From Candidatus Harrysmithiimonas galli (lineage in GTDB: Bacteria; Bacillota; Bacilli; CAJFEE01), in assembly GCA_904373265.1 (NCBI GenBank), contig CAJFEE010000001.1, positions 1-64,000 on the forward strand: DNA of 64,000 nucleotides, given 5' to 3'. A program made the position numbers and the translations under genes. The notes beneath the pieces are model-generated. The model was given only the letters and a program-made list of their open reading frames with translations, was not told the DNA's origin and did not search any database. Positions 6,687 through 60,716 of the stretch are shown here, piece by piece (position 1 is the stretch's first letter; the number at the start of each line of letters is the position of its first letter).

Positions 6687-7553
6687 ATGACCAAGAAAAA
6701 ATCAAAAATGATTATTGCACTCATGTTGACGGGTGCTCTCATCCTTCCTTCACAGGCATCTGCTGATTGGGATGATGACTACTGGGATGATGACAATTTT
6801 TGGAATGACGATAGTCTATGGATTGATGACAGTTTTTGGAATGACGATAGCTTATGGACGGATGACAGTTTTTGGAATGATGATAATTTATGGACGGATG
6901 ATTACTGGGGAAATAATCCTTCGATAAACTCCAACAACAATACACAAAACAATACGACAACAGGCACAACAACAGATGATTACTGGAATGACGACAGTTT
7001 TTGGAACGATGATAGTTTATGGACGGATGACTACTGGAAAGATGATAATCATTTGGTAAATTCTAATGACAATAACACACAAACTGGGAATACAACTACG
7101 GATATTGTCACTGAAACACCAGTAGTAGGGGTAACCATTAGCGGGCAAAAAATTTACCAAGCACTTCGCAATCAAAATGGTTGGAGAAAACTATCCTATA
7201 AAGAAGGAGAGTATCAACCAAATCGGATTTCTAGCGAAATTATTTCCTATGATTTAAAAAATAAGCGCGGAAATACCTATTTAGAAATCGAAATCGATAA
7301 TCAGTATAACCGATATATAAATTACTATGGAAAATCAAGCTTATCAAAACTATTGACTGCCGCAACAGATTCTACAACAAGCAAACAAATTTTAACCATT
7401 GCAGATACAGCCATTCGAACCGGAACACACTCACAACTTCGCAAAAAATTATCGATTGGAAATTATACTGTATATGTGTATGTTGAACGTTCAGGTAAAG
7501 GAAATGAAGTGAAAATTTACCTTGGAAATCAAAACTTTTCACTGTATCGCTAA
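6687..7553 (+). CDS. Secreted protein with Trp-Asp-Asp hexapeptide repeats
   Basis: A 288-residue protein with a clear signal peptide (residues 1-26, cleavage after SQASA). Residues 27 to about 110 are tandem six-residue units of the form [F/L]W[N/T/I]DD[S/N], encoded by 18-base repeats and interrupted by an Asn/Thr-rich linker. A second such linker leads to a folded-looking C-terminal domain (about residues 145-288) with mixed hydrophobic strands and Lys/Arg-rich ends. The ribosome site AGGAGGG (6673-6679) sets the ATG. I know no family for the repeat or the C-terminal domain. The repeated Trp and acidic residues suggest a surface or envelope role, possibly cation or carbohydrate binding, which is inference. 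It stands alone with its own terminator. Confidence 0.8.
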   Translation: MTKKKSKMIIALMLTGALILPSQASADWDDDYWDDDNFWNDDSLWIDDSFWNDDSLWTDDSFWNDDNLWTDDYWGNNPSINSNNNTQNNTTTGTTTDDYWNDDSFWNDDSLWTDDYWKDDNHLVNSNDNNTQTGNTTTDIVTETPVVGVTISGQKIYQALRNQNGWRKLSYKEGEYQPNRISSEIISYDLKNKRGNTYLEIEIDNQYNRYINYYGKSSLSKLLTAATDSTTSKQILTIADTAIRTGTHSQLRKKLSIGNYTVYVYVERSGKGNEVKIYLGNQNFSLYR

Positions 7554-14956: not shown

Positions 14957-15430
14957 TTATAAAAGCAATTGAAATACAACCTGAATTGAAACGGCCTGCT
15001 TCATTGTGTTATATAAAGGACATTTTTTTAGTGCCTGCCGACAAAAACGGATAACTGTATCCTCATCTTTATCAGCATACAAATAAATTTTGAACTTTAG
15101 TGCTGAAATTTCTGGTTCATCCGTATAACCGATAACATCTAACAATGTCAAGGGATTGGCCAAAAGGATCTCAAGTGTACCTTCTATTTCTTCAATACCA
15201 AAATCTTGTTTCTGGCTTTGCTCAACAATGGTTTTTAAAATGCTGCTTAGAATGGAAACTGCAAAATGATCCATACTACTCAAGTCTTTTTGTTTACGAT
15301 CAAATTGCATGGACTTCTTCACGTATAGATGGTTGTTTTGTGTTAATACTTTTATATTTTCTAAATTTATAGATACACCTCTGTAATTCAACTGAAAAAA
15401 TTTGGATTCAGATGGCATCATCCTATACAT
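14957..15430 (-). CDS. OsmC/Ohr-like protein, last gene of a four-gene operon
   Basis: A 157-residue protein with the order of an OsmC-family fold: N-terminal strands, a central helix region (about residues 52-75), then LLANPLTLLDVIGYTDEPEI and a C-terminal CPLYNTMKQAV. OsmC/Ohr proteins reduce organic hydroperoxides with two Cys residues. Here the second Cys (in CPLY) is present, but the central helix that normally carries the first Cys reads HFAVSILSSILKTIVEQ and has none. Peroxidase activity by the usual mechanism is therefore doubtful. Its ATG overlaps the stop of the MetE-like gene by eight bases, with GAGGAG upstream. Confidence 0.7.
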   Translation of the reverse strand: MYRMMPSESKFFQLNYRGVSINLENIKVLTQNNHLYVKKSMQFDRKQKDLSSMDHFAVSILSSILKTIVEQSQKQDFGIEEIEGTLEILLANPLTLLDVIGYTDEPEISALKFKIYLYADKDEDTVIRFCRQALKKCPLYNTMKQAVSIQVVFQLLL

Positions 15431-16610
15431 ATTTTCTCCTCAATTCTTTTGCTGCTTGTACCATATTGCTAACCTTTTGTATAATGGTGTCCATTTCGTT
15501 TACAGGGCGATTGGAAAAAGTTGCAAAACCGCAATCTGGATTTAACCAAAGCTGTTCTGTGCTTACATACTGCAATGCTTTTTTTGCACTTTGTATCATG
15601 CTTTCCTTTGTTTCTACCGTATCTGTCCTCGGATTCATGACGCCAAGTCCAAGTATACATTTTTTCCGAATTGTATCATTTTCTAACAAGGAAGAAAGCT
15701 CCCCTGCTCGTGGAGTGGAAAATTCCAAAAATAAAATATCTGGACATACTTGTTCCATCAGAGGAATCAATGGTGTATAGGGTCCTTTTAATAAAATACT
15801 TTCATCTTTGCTCCAATTTCCTCTACATATATGAAGTCCGATTTTAGATATATTTCGATCTACCTTCTGTACAACAGACTGCAACAAATGAGTAGCAAAA
15901 GCAAGCTCATCTGTTGGATCTTTTTTCTCAGAAAGTGCAGCACACATAAAGGATCTGGTTTTTCCTTCTGAAAACACAACCTCAGTTAAGACAGGCTCAT
16001 CCAATTGAATGATGTCTGCACCATGCTGCTGTAATAAAGCAATTTCCTTTGTAAGCATTTGAATTACAGCTTCACCCAATGCTTCTTTATCTGGATACGC
16101 TTTTTTTGACAGCTCTGGCAACCACATAGAACGTGTCATCAAATAAGGTCCCGGAAGTGTAATTTTTATAGGCTTTGGGGTAAACTTTTTCATCCATAAA
16201 AGTTCATCAACCACAATTCCATTCCGAAATCCCAGCTTACCTGTACAAATGGCATTTTTGATACGCATGGCAGGAACATCTAAAATATCCAAAATCTCAT
16301 GAAAGGCTTCCTTATCCTCAATATAATCCAATATTTCAATCATACTCATCATGCGAATACCATGCAGCTTTCTAGCAATAAATGAAACATAATTATCACG
16401 ACCCAACTCACCAGATGTGATAATATCCAAACCTAGATTTTCCTGAAATTTTATCGCTTGTTCTGTATATTCTATCACAAGCTGTGTAAAATCTTCCTCA
16501 AAAATTTCACCCTTTTGTAACTTCCTTTGTGCTTGCAAAATTTCTTTTGGTCTGGGTAAACTTCCCAACAATGAGGTTTGAAATTTTATAGGTTGGATTT
16601 GACTATTCAT
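15423..16610 (-). CDS. Short MetE-like (cobalamin-independent methionine synthase C-terminal domain) methyltransferase
   Basis: A 395-residue protein of the UROD/MetE-like superfamily corresponding to the catalytic C-terminal half of MetE, without the N-terminal half. Visible features are the TSLLGSLPRPKEIL opening, IITSGELGRDNY, DIIQLDEPVLTE, and zinc-site candidates LHICRGNW (His and Cys) and LNPDCGFATF (Cys). Such stand-alone cores transfer methyl groups to thiols from donors other than the usual triglutamyl folate, or are uncharacterised (like YxjG/YxjH of B. subtilis). It overlaps its neighbours by eight bases on each side (ATGAATAG with the gene upstream), so translation is strongly coupled. 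The context suggests methylthiol or organosulfur metabolism. Confidence 0.85.
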   Translation of the reverse strand: MNSQIQPIKFQTSLLGSLPRPKEILQAQRKLQKGEIFEEDFTQLVIEYTEQAIKFQENLGLDIITSGELGRDNYVSFIARKLHGIRMMSMIEILDYIEDKEAFHEILDILDVPAMRIKNAICTGKLGFRNGIVVDELLWMKKFTPKPIKITLPGPYLMTRSMWLPELSKKAYPDKEALGEAVIQMLTKEIALLQQHGADIIQLDEPVLTEVVFSEGKTRSFMCAALSEKKDPTDELAFATHLLQSVVQKVDRNISKIGLHICRGNWSKDESILLKGPYTPLIPLMEQVCPDILFLEFSTPRAGELSSLLENDTIRKKCILGLGVMNPRTDTVETKESMIQSAKKALQYVSTEQLWLNPDCGFATFSNRPVNEMDTIIQKVSNMVQAAKELRRKYV

Positions 16611-17430
16611 GATGAAATTCCATTAAGAAATTTAAATATGTATTGGCTTCTTGAATCTGCCCAAATCCAGTATATCTGCCAGGTACCCAGGCCTTTAGAC
16701 CTTCCATATCCATCATTTCTTTATGGTCAGGATTGCTATAGTCCATCTTATGGAGAATCTCTGTCCATTTTGCAAATTTTTCTTTTGACAAGTCTGGTCT
16801 GGCAACAAAAATACAGTGATCAAAAGGCTCCGTTTCAGCCAGACAAACCAATTGGTTGGCATCGATTGTACCAGCAGCTTTCCATGCTTTCCAATTTAAA
16901 TCCAAAGCAAAGGAAGCATCCACCTCTTGATTTTCTAATGCTTTCATGGCATTCAACTCTCCGCCTACATGATCCCCATGCAGTGAAACCGCAATATCAA
17001 ACCGTTTTTCTGTATAATCTTTTCCGTATGCCAATCCAGCTTTTCTTAAAAAGTTAATGGGAATTAATCTCGCCTGTGGAGAATCCACAGCACCCAATCC
17101 AATGGTTTTCCCTTTTAAATCCTGTAATTTTGTAATGCCAGAATCCTTTCTAATAATAAGATATGTTTTTCTATCTTGATCTGTATCCCTCATCGATCCC
17201 ATCAGACAAGTACCATCTGTTCTTAAGTAAGCGTCAAGCCAAGCCAATGGAGAATTCCATGCAATATCAATTTCCTTTGCCATTAGACCTTCTACCTGTT
17301 TTTTATAATCTTTGTAATAAACCGGTTCAATCGGGCATCCTTCTTTTGCAAAAAAATCCGCAATAATCCCCCAAATCACCGTTACTTTTGGATCGTATAT
17401 GACTGCACCAACTTTAATATTTTCACTCAT
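16603..17430 (-). CDS. PhnD/SsuA-type substrate-binding protein without a signal peptide
   Basis: A 275-residue protein of the PhnD-like periplasmic-binding fold. Visible features are GAVIYDPKVTVIWGI at the N terminus, then EIDIAWNSPLAWLDAY, DLKGKTIGLGAVDSPQA and NAMKALENQEVDASFALDL. Family members bind phosphonates, phosphite, sulfonates or related anions outside the membrane for an ABC importer. This one has no signal sequence or lipobox, and no permease or ATPase gene is nearby. It may act as an intracellular ligand-binding protein or as an enzyme in this operon. The ribosome site GAGGTGAT sits in the 15-base gap after the acyl-CoA dehydrogenase-like gene. Confidence 0.82.
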   Translation of the reverse strand: MSENIKVGAVIYDPKVTVIWGIIADFFAKEGCPIEPVYYKDYKKQVEGLMAKEIDIAWNSPLAWLDAYLRTDGTCLMGSMRDTDQDRKTYLIIRKDSGITKLQDLKGKTIGLGAVDSPQARLIPINFLRKAGLAYGKDYTEKRFDIAVSLHGDHVGGELNAMKALENQEVDASFALDLNWKAWKAAGTIDANQLVCLAETEPFDHCIFVARPDLSKEKFAKWTEILHKMDYSNPDHKEMMDMEGLKAWVPGRYTGFGQIQEANTYLNFLMEFHHE

Positions 17431-17445
17431 TTTGCTATCACCTCA

Positions 17446-18573
17446 TTATAAAATTGGAAGCCCTACAAGAGATTTTCCAAGCCAAGTAATCAGAACATCG
17501 ACACTGGGTGCCATAATTTGACTGGCATAAGAATCGCGTAAAATTCTTTCAAAGTTTCCCATTTTATTGTAGGCCTTCCCTCCACCAACTCTCATCGCAA
17601 GTCTACTACATTCAATAACTGATTCCGAAGCAAAAATGCGTGCAGAAAGAATTTTTAATAAAGCATCCGCTTCTTGGTTTGCCCCAGCCTTTGCGGCATC
17701 TCTTGCGGTTTGTTTGGCTGCATTTGCCATTGTGTAAATTTTGGATAGATGAATTTGTACGGTTTCGATATCGCTTAAAGCTTGTCCATCAGGATATACC
17801 CTTTCTTTTGCATATGTAACCGCTTCCTCGGAAAGCTGAATGCATAGACCCGTATATACAGAAGCCAAACCTGTCACAAAAAATGGTGTAATGACATGAA
17901 ACACTTGCTCTAAACCGCTTCCTTCTGCTCCAACTTGATACAAATGGTCAATGGCAGCATTTGTAAAAATCATTGGACAGGATACGTTACCACGCATTCC
18001 CATACCTTGCCATTCACTATCTTTAAATGTCACACCTTCTGTATCTAATGAAACAACCCAATTATTGCTTTCACCTTCTTTTTTTGCAGGTGCTCCAATC
18101 AAATAGTATGACGCATGTGTTGCAGAGGTTACCATACTTTTTGAACCGTTAAATATAGCACCATCTTTTGTATGATTGACTTCAAGCTGAGACTTGATAA
18201 AATGTGTACCTGTTTCAAACTCACTGTATGCCAGCGCAAAAAATTTATGATTTTCAACAACATCCTTGGCTATTTTTTCCTTTAATGTATCACTTCCGTA
18301 TGTCATAACACAATGCAGTCCGACATTATGCATCATATAGCACAGACTAGCTGTTGCACTCGCTTCAGCAAATGCCATACAAACCTGTGAATGCTCCTCT
18401 AGTCCTTTTCCCAGTCCGCCATATTGTTCTGGAATTAAAAGATTAAAGTATCCTTTTTCTCCCATTTTTTGAAATGATTCAACTGGAAATATAGCCTCCT
18501 CATCACATTTTTTTGCATATGGGGCAATAAATTCTTGGGCAAACTCCTTTGCCTCTTCATAAATTTTGTACAT
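17446..18573 (-). CDS. Acyl-CoA dehydrogenase-fold flavoprotein, possibly a monooxygenase
   Basis: About 375 residues with the acyl-CoA dehydrogenase order: helical N domain (IPEQYGGLGKG), beta domain (FALAYSEFETGTH, IFNGSKSMVTSA), helical C domain (MRVGGGKAYNKMGNFERILRD). In true dehydrogenases the C domain ends near the catalytic Glu motif YEGT; the matching place here reads SQIMAPSVDVL with no Glu. That is how flavin monooxygenases of the same fold differ (DszC/SfnC type). B. subtilis YdbM is a homologue tied to sulfur metabolism, as I recall. AGGAG lies four bases before one ATG and seven before the next; I chose the second. First gene of the operon that ends at 14957. Confidence 0.83.
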   Translation of the reverse strand: MYKIYEEAKEFAQEFIAPYAKKCDEEAIFPVESFQKMGEKGYFNLLIPEQYGGLGKGLEEHSQVCMAFAEASATASLCYMMHNVGLHCVMTYGSDTLKEKIAKDVVENHKFFALAYSEFETGTHFIKSQLEVNHTKDGAIFNGSKSMVTSATHASYYLIGAPAKKEGESNNWVVSLDTEGVTFKDSEWQGMGMRGNVSCPMIFTNAAIDHLYQVGAEGSGLEQVFHVITPFFVTGLASVYTGLCIQLSEEAVTYAKERVYPDGQALSDIETVQIHLSKIYTMANAAKQTARDAAKAGANQEADALLKILSARIFASESVIECSRLAMRVGGGKAYNKMGNFERILRDSYASQIMAPSVDVLITWLGKSLVGLPIL

Positions 18574-19638
18574 CATTCTTCTCCTATTCATAAGCATCTT
18601 TCATATTTTTTAGTACGTACATCGTTTATTATAACCACCTGATCCTTATTAAAATACAACTTATATTTATAATAAAAAACCTATATTTATTTATTTTTTC
18701 TATAAAAGAAAAAGATTGGAAGGAACGGATATCTATTTGTTTTCTGAAAGAAAATACAAGTCACATGTCTTACTTCTTCTTAGCAAAGCATTTTTATATA
18801 CTTATTTGTAAAAACATGTATTTAAATTTTTCATCCATTTTTTTCTAGCCAGCCTTTTGTAGCTTTATATATTCGAAAGGTTCATTCATTTCTTTATGTG
18901 TTTTTTATTTTTATGTCCCAATACAAATGGATTGATACCAAATTAGGATATCTGTAAACTTTGTCTGTTTTTTACATATCCTGCTCTTCTACACGATTAC
19001 CCGAACACAATTATATCAGGCAATATAAAATGCTCAGGATTTATTAGATCTTCCTCTAAGGGGAATCTATTTTATTCACAAAATTAATAATATATTTTTT
19101 ATAAATCTTATTTTTACTCTAACCGATTTGTCATTTATAAGCTATATTTCACAAATAAAATGCCAAACCAAATTCATAAGAATCAATCACATTCTTCTTT
19201 ATGTATAGGAACAACAATAAAATCACTTATTATTTTTAAATTATTTTAAATATATTAAATAAAATATAATATTTTTCACAATAGTTTGATCGGATATAGC
19301 AAAATCTTTCCAAGACTTTATACCTATCAAACTTGACAAAAATCAAACTGCCTCTATTAGCATTTTAATTTATCCAAATTTTCTTTGTAAAATTTATCTG
19401 TTTATATATGGGATACTCGTAATCACATACAATAATTTCTTCCTTTTTATTTGTTGTTCTATAAGCTTCTTTTGTACTTTATAATAATTTTACAATACAA
19501 TTTCAAATAAATATTCTAGTTAATTCAGTTAAAAATAAAAAATAGGTTACTGGAAATATTTAATTGAATATGTTATTTATTTAAAGTAAAATTATTTTTT
19601 ACTAGATTAAGAATAAAAATAAGGAGAGTATATGTAAA
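18574..19638. other. AT-rich spacer with the operon promoter region
   Basis: About 1 kb with no supported gene. On the minus strand, TATAAT (18628-18633) and just downstream the palindrome GTACGTAC (18613-18620) lie 40-60 bases before the acyl-CoA dehydrogenase-like gene and may be its promoter and operator. No SAM (S-box) or T-box leader was seen. The remainder is very AT-rich. Confidence 0.35.
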
Positions 19639-20501
19639 ATGAAATTATGCAAAATGAGATCTGTATTTTGTACAATACTATTGTTATTGGGGGGATTGTC
19701 CGCTTGTAGTAGTCATCCTAAAGAAGCAACAACCCCATCTGATGCACAAGCGTGGATTGATGCGAGTAAAGAGAAAATGAGTAAGATAAAAAGCTATGAT
19801 GCAGTAATAGACAATAACATAGATATAACTATAAGTAACCAAAGTGCAGCAGTGAAGATGCATATGGAATATTCCCATATCTTAGATCCATATGGGATAA
19901 AAGGAATGATAGCGTTGGATATGGATGCAGGTGCACTAGGTAATATGACACAAAACGTGGATATATATATATTGAAGAAAAAGATGAACAGTATCAAATG
20001 TATACAAAAGCGCAAGGAACCAGCGATTGGTTAATTGAATATCTGAACAATTCTGAAGTAACCAACTATGAGCCTATAGAGCTGATCCATATATTTTTAG
20101 AGGGAATTTCAGATGCGAAAATTATACGAACAGAAGAAATTGAAGGTATGAAAGCACAAGTTGTAAAAGGTATTATATTTGGAGAAAATCTTAAAGAATT
20201 GTTTAAAGCAACTAGCTCAGCAAGTAACTTTACTGATATGAATCTTGAAAAGATTTCAGATGTAGCTTTCACAAAAGTATTTTCAAATGTACCACCATTA
20301 TCTATACATATATGGATCGACACAAAAAGTCAATATGTTATAAAATATGAAATGAACATGAGTGAAGTGATGAATCAAATTATAGCAAATGTATTTGAAG
20401 AAAATGTGGCAAAAGAGTGGTCTTATGGTAATGCACAAATATCTACTACTTGTAAAAACTTTAACCAAGTAAAACCAATTACCATGCCAAAAGTAAAATA
20501 A
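19639..20501 (+). pseudogene. Lipoprotein gene frameshifted in an AT dinucleotide tract (DUF6612-like)
   Basis: The first part (19639-20034) has a lipoprotein signal with lipobox LSACS. It is followed by DAQAWIDASKEKMSKIKSYD, the layout of DUF6612-type lipoproteins with a LolA/LppX-like fold. The second part (19998-20501) continues the same protein in another frame (MYTKAQGTSDWLIEYLNN, ending near residue 287 of the reconstructed product). The frames meet at (AT)6, 19961-19972. Removing one AT unit gives a continuous reading NVDIYIEEKDEQYQMYTK. The rest of both halves is intact, so the lesion is recent, reversible, or a sequencing error. AAGGAGAG precedes the ATG at some distance. Confidence 0.8.
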
Positions 20502-58353: not shown

Positions 58354-59568
58354 TTATAACAGATTATCTAGTCCGTTTACATTTGTTGATTCATTTTGCT
58401 TAAAAGTCAAAGTTTCAATGCCCTGCACAGCTTGGTGTAACAAAGGTTTAAAATCAAATTTGCTTTCAAACCAGGCACATTTCTCTCGTTTCGGTCGTGT
58501 TGTTGGATGATCAGGCAAAAAAATGGTACAGCAATCTTCATAGGGTCGAATCGATGTTTCATATGTTCCAATTTTTATGGAAAGATCAATAATTTCAAGC
58601 TTATCCATCGCAATGACCGGACGCAGCACTGGAAGATCAGTTACTTCGTTAATAACATACATAGAGTCAACCGTTTGTGACGCAACCTGTCCTAGACTCT
58701 CACCTGTTGACAGTACAAGTGCTTTTCTCTTTCGTGCAAATTCCGTTGCAATCCGCAGCATCATTCGACGCATAATGGTCATTGTATAGTTGGCAGGAAT
58801 TTCCTTGTGAATTGCTTTTTGTATTTCTGTAAATGGAACCAAATGCAGTTTCATTTGCCGATTATACTTGGTTAAAATTTTAACCAAATCAATCACCTTC
58901 TCTTTTGCTCGTTCGGATGTAAACGGCGGACTATGAAAATGAATACACTCTACATTTACACCTCGCTTCATCATCAAATAAGCAGCGACAGGACTATCGA
59001 TTCCACCTGATAAAAGCAGCAAAGACTTACCTCCAACACCGACTGGATATCCTCCCAATCCATTTCGTTGTTGACACATCACATAGGTAAAATCTGGACG
59101 AACCTCAACTTTAATATTTACATTTGGATTTTTTACATCAACCTGTAGCGCACCGTCCAATTGAATGAGAACATGTGCACCAAGTTGTTGCTGCAGTGCA
59201 AATGTATCCAACGGGAATTCTTTATAAGCACGATGAACTGAGATTTTGAATGTTTTTTTTCCGTTTTTCAGCGCTTCCTTGGCAGCCTCTAGTACATGCT
59301 CCTTCATGGATTGTAGATCAGTCACAGTACGCACTGCCAAATCAAATTTATGAATACCAAATACCTCTTCCAATGCATTCATCACATCTGTCTGATTTTC
59401 TCCGTTTAAAAAAATATACATACGATCACGTGTTGATTCATATTTTAAATGAGAAAATTTTTTCAACTTAACAGAGATATTTTCTCGCAAAAATGTAATA
59501 AATTTTTTTCTGTTTTTTCCTTTTGTTGTCAATTCACCATAACGAATTAAAATCAAATCATATTTCAT
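58354..59568 (-). CDS. thiI: tRNA 4-thiouridine synthase ThiI
   Basis: Adenylates tRNA uridine 8 and transfers sulfur supplied by a cysteine desulfurase; also linked to thiazole synthesis. 404 residues. N-terminal ferredoxin-like/THUMP region (RYGELTTKGKNRKKF, then to about residue 165), PP-loop LLLLSGGIDSPVAAYLMMKR, and YEDCCTIFLPDHPTTRP. As usual in Bacillus, there is no C-terminal rhodanese domain; the sulfur donor is the adjacent desulfurase. Five-base gap after that gene. Confidence 0.96.
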   Translation of the reverse strand: MKYDLILIRYGELTTKGKNRKKFITFLRENISVKLKKFSHLKYESTRDRMYIFLNGENQTDVMNALEEVFGIHKFDLAVRTVTDLQSMKEHVLEAAKEALKNGKKTFKISVHRAYKEFPLDTFALQQQLGAHVLIQLDGALQVDVKNPNVNIKVEVRPDFTYVMCQQRNGLGGYPVGVGGKSLLLLSGGIDSPVAAYLMMKRGVNVECIHFHSPPFTSERAKEKVIDLVKILTKYNRQMKLHLVPFTEIQKAIHKEIPANYTMTIMRRMMLRIATEFARKRKALVLSTGESLGQVASQTVDSMYVINEVTDLPVLRPVIAMDKLEIIDLSIKIGTYETSIRPYEDCCTIFLPDHPTTRPKREKCAWFESKFDFKPLLHQAVQGIETLTFKQNESTNVNGLDNLL

Positions 59569-59573
59569 TTTTG

Positions 59574-60716
59574 TTACCTCATCATATCTTGAATTTGTTG
59601 AACAATATTTGGAAATACCTGCATCACTTGCTGAGCTTGTACTTCTGTATTTTCCGAAGAAAAACTAAACCGTAAACTAGTACGCGCTTCATTCTCTGAT
59701 CTACCCATCGCCAATAAAACATGAGATGCATGATTTTCTTTAGTAGAACAGGCGGAACGGGAAGAAATATAAATTTCATGTTTACTTAATTCCTGAATCA
59801 GCACCTCTGGCTTAATATCAGAAATCGAAAGATTTAAAATATGCGGCGCAGCATATTGAAGCGGCGTGTGGATTGTTACATCTTTTATTTGCAACATTTC
59901 TTTTCTAAGATAATCCTGAATTCCCTTTATCTGTACTCTTTTATTTTCCACATCTTCCAATGCCAAACGAAGTGCCTTAGCAAATGCCGCAATTCCTGGT
60001 AAATTTTCCGTACCTGCACGCAATCGCATTTGCTGTCCTCCGCCTATTATTAATGGAGACAAACGAATCCCATTTCGTACATAGAGCAAACCAACCCCCT
60101 TTACACAATGAAATTTATGTCCAGATAAAGCATATAAATCAATTCCGCAATCATGTAAATTCAAAGGAACTTTTCCGATTCCCTGCACACCATCCACATG
60201 AAAAATAACAGTCGGATAAGCTTGCAAAAATGCACCAATTTCATGTATTGGCTGAATGGTTCCAACTTCATTATTTACATGCTGGATGGAAACCAGGATG
60301 GTTTGATCTGTCAGAGCAGCCTTTAAATCATCTAAACAAATACGCCCCTGATGATCTACAGGCAAATAAGTAATATGAAATCCTTGTGTTTCCAATTGCT
60401 TACACACTTGTAAAACGGAAGAATGTTCTGTGCAAGTGGTGATGATATGATTCCCTCTATTTTGATATTGATAAGCCACACCTTTAATGGCCATATTATT
60501 ACTTTCAGTTGCACCCGAGGTAAAAACAATTTCTTTTGGCTGGATTTGTAAAAGCTGTGCCACTTGCTGTGTCGATTTGCGTAAAAGCGCTTCAGCCTGT
60601 TGTCCCAATGTATGAAGAGAAGAAGGATTACCAAAAAAACGCTGAGAAACCGTTACATAGGTATTTAGAACCGATTCATTTGGAGCAGTTGTCGCACTTT
60701 GATCAAAATATATCAC
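59574..60716 (-). CDS. Cysteine desulfurase (NifS/IscS family, NifZ-like) dedicated to ThiI
   Basis: PLP enzyme that removes sulfur from cysteine. 380 residues. Seen are YFDQSATTAPNESVL, VFTSGATESNNMAIKG, FHVDGVQGIGKVPLNLHDCG, PLP-Lys motif ALSGHKFHCVKGVGLL, and the catalytic Cys in SRSACSTKENHAS. In B. subtilis the desulfurase encoded before thiI (NifZ) supplies persulfide directly to ThiI. Start GTG at 60716 after AAGGAGG. Operon nifZ-like-thiI. Confidence 0.95.
   Translation of the reverse strand: MIYFDQSATTAPNESVLNTYVTVSQRFFGNPSSLHTLGQQAEALLRKSTQQVAQLLQIQPKEIVFTSGATESNNMAIKGVAYQYQNRGNHIITTCTEHSSVLQVCKQLETQGFHITYLPVDHQGRICLDDLKAALTDQTILVSIQHVNNEVGTIQPIHEIGAFLQAYPTVIFHVDGVQGIGKVPLNLHDCGIDLYALSGHKFHCVKGVGLLYVRNGIRLSPLIIGGGQQMRLRAGTENLPGIAAFAKALRLALEDVENKRVQIKGIQDYLRKEMLQIKDVTIHTPLQYAAPHILNLSISDIKPEVLIQELSKHEIYISSRSACSTKENHASHVLLAMGRSENEARTSLRFSFSSENTEVQAQQVMQVFPNIVQQIQDMMR

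Follow-up and report, generated by a model that had tools for sequence, protein, structure and literature searches.

A four-gene cassette linked to selenium in Candidatus Harrysmithiimonas galli: a possible unit of selenium supply

The window analysed here, i.e., the whole stretch of 64,000 nucleotides from Candidatus Harrysmithiimonas galli (Bacillota; contig CAJFEE010000001.1, positions 1 to 64,000), carries at positions 14957-18573 four tightly coupled genes, all on the minus strand, whose presence was verified from the open reading frames. They encode, in this order, a flavoprotein with the acyl-CoA dehydrogenase (ACAD) fold, a cytosolic protein with the PhnD fold, a short MetE-like protein and an OsmC-fold protein. 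This cassette is linked to selenium, a statement we make with high confidence; the gene unit, its co-distribution with selenium use, its linkage to selenocysteine (Sec) genes and the residues lost or retained by its proteins were all computed. As to the role, the cassette rather probably acts in the supply of selenium to SelD and not in the use of the SelD product, and we tentatively favour a cytoplasmic salvage unit that would free selenide for SelD from organic or methylated selenium, with methyl-selenium as a possible substrate class.

To date, prokaryotes have no known high-affinity transport system specific for selenium (2026 review, PMC13188914), and the cassette offers concrete genes bearing on how these organisms obtain the element. 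It is widespread and nearly confined to selenium users, and what appears to be a counterpart based on an oxidase occurs in Actinobacteria, Acidobacteria and Planctomycetes. Its carriers include the human-associated Gemella, Anaerococcus and Peptoniphilus and the soil genera Bacillus and Paenibacillus, for which organic selenium is a plausible source. Among open-licence papers, none was found that links these families to selenium or describes the cassette; if the proposal is true, gene pairs of the FadE16/Rv1680 type, so far unassigned, would gain a testable role.

Conservation and co-distribution with selenium use

The ACAD and PhnD-fold genes are separated by a 15-base gap, followed by two 8-base overlaps, and both the coordinates and this spacing agree exactly with a preliminary description of the DNA, which had regarded the four genes as one unit. 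Since a search with the family model NF049985 (E ≤ 1e-30) in 399 genomes of the phylum matched the own genome alone, the distribution was taken from a scan of genome contigs, in which a PhnD alignment was compared with one genome per species (GTDB r220), giving 80 loci that were then re-annotated. The complete set of four genes is grouped in at least 32 further loci, spread over Bacillota, Synergistota, Coriobacteriia, Alphaproteobacteria, Campylobacterota, Chloroflexota, Latescibacterota and one archaeal metagenome-assembled genome (MAG), so that the co-occurrence check bears out the single unit; such a neighbourhood is far beyond chance.

Two types of cassette can be told apart. Type A, to which the cassette of the window belongs, has the order ACAD-PhnD-MetE-OsmC and is found as adjacent genes in Bacillus, Neobacillus, Paenibacillus, Cohnella, Gemella, Falseniella, Anaerococcus, Ezakiella, Peptoniphilus/Aedoeadaptatus and Berryella, as well as in a Synergistaceae, two Neomegalonema and a Campylobacterales MAG. 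In Latescibacterota, Chloroflexota and the archaeal MAG Gagatemarchaeum, which form a deeper branch, the order is OsmC-ACAD-PhnD-MetE, and one Acidobacteria locus (L054) has OsmC-PhnD-MetE with no ACAD detected. Type B, the sister cassette, is seen mostly in aerobic lineages and consists of ACAD-PhnD followed (in some Bacilli preceded) by a single protein of ~430 aa, with an N-terminal TusA-like domain and a C-terminal part resembling R2-like ribonucleotide reductase small subunits and ligand-binding oxidases. The TusA part is without the usual Cys, while the R2-like part keeps metal-ligand-like E/EARH/E/DEGRH motifs; this fusion of a Cys-less TusA with an R2-like oxidase beside ACAD-PhnD (L078:2052-3335, L022:9905-11191 and relatives) appears to be undescribed. 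On actinobacterial plasmids the ACAD-PhnD pair is accompanied by DoxX or radical SAM genes. No further conserved neighbour families beyond the cassette genes were found in the re-annotated loci.

Because locus L054 runs on into selenoneine genes, the cassette genomes were surveyed for selenium use, of which selD is the gatekeeper. A selD gene over the cut-off is present in 27 of the 28 type A genomes, including the own genome, where it carries an in-frame TGA, and in 31/34 type B genomes; in the class at large, selD occurs in 66 of 201 genomes, or 50 of 94 genera. Even at the genus rate the excess in type A has p = 5e-7, a value that, like the other selD p-values, ignores relatedness and is descriptive only. 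In the class sample, all five genomes with the PhnD gene have selD (p = 0.003 by genome, 0.04 by genus). Genes for selA were found in 23/28 type A and 30/34 type B genomes, and among the five type A genomes that lack it three, all Paenibacillaceae, have the selenouridine synthase SelU (L108 confirmed); in a Synergistaceae MAG, yqeB and yedF adjoin selD. The cassette thus tracks selD across different selenium traits, and supply is therefore favoured over any one particular product. Since it is found almost only in selenium users, it is probably a route that frees selenium from an organic compound and not a sulfur pathway.

Physical linkage to selenium genes

In Streptomyces, Amycolatopsis and Eremiobacterota, sister cassettes have selD, selA/B or the gene of a Sec-formate dehydrogenase as neighbours. 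At the Streptomyces locus L103, selD, selB and selA come next after the PhnD gene; L106 reads ACAD-PhnD-TusA/R2-formate dehydrogenase-selD, with an in-frame TGA at residue 189 of the dehydrogenase; and in Eremiobacterota (L101, genome G638) the sister cassette abuts selD. At L070, L072 and L084, selA and selD are on the cassette contig, within ~17 kb. Linkage was thus observed in 6/34 type B cases versus 0.2 expected, four of the six being Streptomyces. In type A, the Paenibacillus silviterrae locus L027 has a LysR gene 16 bases past OsmC on the opposite strand, above the cut-off of NF040786, the curated NCBIfam for the selenium metabolism-associated LysR regulator. The window itself contains no selenium gene, the single match in the search for them being an IscS-like gene ~41 kb from the cassette, and the host sel locus (selA, LysR_Se, a selenocysteine-lyase-like gene, yedE, selD) is on a different contig. 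In two Paenibacillus loci (L108:6986-11590 and L109:6134-10742), selD-selU operons are preceded by an importer of the PhnC/D/E type (ATP-binding cassette, ABC), a candidate for selenium import; its binding protein has matches to PhnD (1e-59) and TIGR04553 (1e-45).

In the Acidobacteria MAG locus (L054:5026-8330), OsmC-PhnD-MetE is immediately followed by the selenoneine genes SenA, SenB and EgtD, with SenA over its cut-off. Ergothioneine or selenoneine as the main role was considered from this locus and not adopted. The locus also bears on an arrangement in which the cassette acts downstream of SelD and turns selenophosphate into a selenium metabolite, the cytosolic PhnD-fold protein serving as selenophosphate carrier or enzyme by analogy with phosphorus oxyanions. 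Besides the adjacency of this deep relative to the makers of selenoneine, such a role is consistent with the ligands of PhnD-fold relatives (phosphonate, phosphite and phosphate) and with G638, where selD adjoins the cassette and selA and selU are missing. We consider it unlikely: a trait of its own would have no need of a second one that depends on SelD, yet almost every cassette genome has such a second trait; in addition, the S-T-S motif for phosphonate binding is lost, and G638 is a MAG that may be incomplete. A new SelD-dependent trait, in which the PhnD-fold, ACAD-fold and MetE-like proteins would carry the selenium of selenophosphate into an undescribed metabolite, e.g., one derived from selenohomocysteine, with O2 (TusA/R2) or without it (MetE/OsmC), is rather improbable.

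Several points weigh against selenium supply as the role of the cassette. The species are related, so the counts of cassette and selD are not independent; in Paenibacillaceae, 5/5 PhnD-positive genomes have selD, which is not significant, and the family adds little to the association because 72/105 of its genomes have selD anyway. The archaeal MAG G471 and genome G611, both possibly incomplete, are without selD, and G638 is selD-positive without selA and selU. Two Saccharothrix loci (L090 and L097) have the PhnD gene in genomes without selD and selA, for which a relic or sulfur use are the candidate explanations; L090 also has the TusA/R2 gene, and its ACAD gene is displaced and inverted. Mycobacterium tuberculosis, after whose Rv1679/Rv1680 NCBI named the pair, is likewise not known to have selD. 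Of the type A cassettes, L027 alone has a selenium gene no more than 6 kb away, and only sister cassettes directly adjoin selD or selA. Finally, the chemistry proposed below is hypothetical.

The four proteins and the proposed release of selenide

None of the four proteins reaches a curated NCBIfam cut-off. The ACAD-fold protein (FadE16/Rv1679-like, 17446..18573, minus strand) has the N-terminal, middle and C-terminal ACAD domains (Pfam Acyl-CoA_dh_N/M/1) and is closest to Rv1679_FadE16 (NF049984, 8.6e-61; 206.2 bits against a cut-off of 600). From its first ATG the gene could also span 17446-18597; the internal ATG at 18573, preceded by a GGAGAAG-like ribosome site, agrees with the N-termini of the homologues. 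In the alignment to 7w0j and other solved ACADs, the position of the catalytic Glu (Glu376 of medium-chain acyl-CoA dehydrogenase, MCAD) is Ala363, and the column holds Ala in 77 and Gly in 2 of 79 homologues; Met89-His90 is invariant in 79/79, as are Ser125-Glu126 and Asn204. By its residues, then, the protein differs from a normal acyl-CoA dehydrogenase, as the preliminary description had surmised. That the cassette is simply an operon for an acyl-CoA dehydrogenase of fatty-acid or branched-chain metabolism, its neighbours being unrelated, as the Pfam and PDB matches might suggest, is contradicted by the missing Glu, by the invariant Phe240 at the position of MCAD Thr255 (hand alignment) and by a four-gene unit conserved across phyla; the Glu to Ala change rules out an ordinary enzyme, and we give the operon reading hardly any credence. 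Five loci (L037, L056, L057, L045 and L047) carry a pair of ACAD genes, arranged in tandem or on either side of PhnD; each resembles the window gene, and together they perhaps form a heteromer.

The PhnD/PtxB-fold protein (Rv1680-like, 16603..17430, minus strand; Pfam Phosphonate-bd 5.9e-35) has no signal peptide, because its N-terminus, MSENIKVGAVIYD, leads directly into the first strand, and no importer gene was seen next to it at the window locus; N-terminus and neighbourhood are thus as the preliminary description had them. Its best NCBIfam is SBP_like_Rv1680 (NF049985, 5.8e-60; 203 versus a cut-off of 400), and the AlphaFold2 model (predicted local distance difference test, pLDDT, 94) matches PhnD/PtxB in Foldseek with a template modelling (TM) score of ~0.7, i.e., a substrate-binding-protein fold. 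The S-T-S motif that holds phosphonate is replaced by D116-S117-P118-Q119, and a His205-Cys206 pair, not present in the aligned solved relatives, is invariant among the homologues. A phosphonate or sulfonate importer protein was ruled out by the missing signal, the missing ABC genes and the lost motif, and, given the D-S-P-Q replacement, the binding of sulfonate or phosphonate, noted earlier for SsuA/PhnD proteins, is likewise not supported for this one. TIGR04553, a putative selenate ABC transporter substrate-binding protein, matches at 5e-19 in the window and 1e-35 in L022; it shares the fold with the window protein, as do PhnD and PtxB, whereas the window protein is without signal peptide, ABC partner and phosphonate motif and has the added invariant His-Cys.

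The MetE-like protein (395 aa; 15423..16610, minus strand) has only Meth_synt_2 above the cut-off (Pfam, 1.4e-32), i.e., the catalytic domain with its zinc and homocysteine sites, the N-terminal folate half being missing. Aligned to solved MetE, it keeps G16, S17, E68, D204, H260, C262 and C360 in 35/35 sequences, of which, from known MetE structures, we take His260, Cys262 and Cys360 to be zinc ligands and Ser17, Glu68 and Asp204 to be homocysteine contacts. The OsmC-fold protein (14957..15430, minus strand; Pfam OsmC 1.3e-08) gives an AlphaFold2 model with pLDDT 83 that matches OsmC/Ohr structures. In 35 such sequences there is no first peroxidase Cys at positions 53-65, and the second is present in only 3; a role as OsmC peroxidase was ruled out by this loss of active-site Cys. 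The match to the OsmC-related selenoproteins (NF041052) is weak (0.002). The fold is common to these and to the OsmC/Ohr hydroperoxidases, from which the window protein differs in having neither the peroxidatic cysteine nor selenocysteine.

In the selenium-supply model, for which we infer substrate, direction and each catalytic step, selenium would be released, in the form of selenide or its equivalent, from an organic compound that is probably methylated. The ACAD-fold and PhnD-fold proteins would perform the step shared by both cassette types, binding the selenium compound and activating or reducing it; the His-Cys-Cys zinc site and homocysteine pocket of the MetE-like protein would then take the methyl group to form methionine and leave selenide, with the OsmC-fold protein, its peroxidase cysteines gone, as a putative binding or docking subunit. 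In type B, the TusA/R2-like protein would replace MetE and OsmC, probably by O2-dependent cleavage of the same bond. SelD would turn the freed selenide into selenophosphate, destined for selenocysteine, selenouridine or the Se-cofactor.

The preliminary description had instead proposed the conversion of an organosulfur or methylated compound, possibly to methionine. Methyl transfer to homocysteine stays likely because the MetE-like protein keeps the thiol-methyl-acceptor residues, whereas for the element itself the presence of selD, selA and selU, the adjacency to Sec genes and to a selenium regulator and the lack of riboswitches point to selenium. An organosulfur or methylated-sulfur pathway with an indirect selenium association could invoke the intact homocysteine and zinc sites, the NCBIfam relatives of the ACAD protein (SfnB, DszC and 3-sulfinopropionyl-CoA desulfinase among them) and the overlap of sulfur and selenium chemistry; it is made improbable by the strong co-distribution with selD, by the Sec-gene linkage and by the riboswitch scan. 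Neither in the window nor in the upstream regions of 13 window-type loci was a riboswitch found, S-box (raised earlier as a possible upstream site), T-box and other sulfur types included, glmS and c-di-GMP matches being elements of other genes, and riboswitch control of the cassette was therefore dropped.

Related systems and genomic setting

The closest known systems are the type I mlp clusters, which have corrinoid methyltransferases with His-Cys-Cys zinc sites and occur in hosts of which 87% make selenocysteine, and for which demethylation of methyl-selenium with return of selenide has been proposed (Kountz and Balskus, PMC10418091). Methanococcus voltae SdmC and Clostridium ljungdahlii Mlp2 thus share with the cassette the zinc methyltransferase site, the selenium-using hosts and the proposed release of selenide, but their UroD-superfamily Mlps, corrinoid protein and reductive activator are not among the four cassette genes, which have instead a MetE-family protein with ACAD- and PhnD-fold proteins. 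By this analogy, the cassette looks like a corrinoid-free counterpart of unrelated origin that serves the same need, with a His-Cys-Cys MetE-type protein to accept the methyl group in type A and an oxidase in type B. The adjacent ACAD and substrate-binding-protein-like genes Rv1679 (FadE16, NF049984) and Rv1680 (NF049985) are the best matches of two window proteins, which nevertheless fall below the cut-offs (206 versus 600 and 203 versus 400); their plasmid relatives in Mycolicibacterium and Rhodococcus have radical SAM or DoxX neighbours and no MetE or OsmC, and the NCBI names of the two families give no function.

The core methionine synthases MesA-MesD, like the window protein, consist of the MetE catalytic domain without the N-terminal folate half (PMC7857596), but the cassette is without MesX/DUF1852 or a corrinoid partner and is linked to selenium genomes. 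This likeness would fit a fifth folate-independent methionine synthase family, supplied with methyl by ACAD and PhnD as MesD is by MesX, a predicted flavin user comparable to the flavin-type partner here, with methionine supply as the role. We regard this as quite unlikely, as it leaves the co-occurrence with selD and the MetE-less sister cassette unexplained, and as MesA-C are thought to be corrinoid-dependent and MesD needs MesX, neither of which is in the cassette. The selenium accessory genes YedE, YedF, DUF3343 and LysR_Se were, like the cassette, associated with SelD by comparative genomics (PMC5322559); their families are unrelated to those of the cassette, which is absent from the candidates of that study.

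A promoter and terminator scan gave a signal no higher than in shuffles. Elsewhere in the window, a ThiI-like gene stands beside an IscS-like cysteine desulfurase gene (58354-60716), probably for tRNA thiolation; two overlapping plus-strand open reading frames (19639-20501) resemble one lipoprotein gene split by a frameshift; and positions 6687-7553 encode a secreted-looking protein with many Trp-Asp-rich repeats (WxDDSxW).

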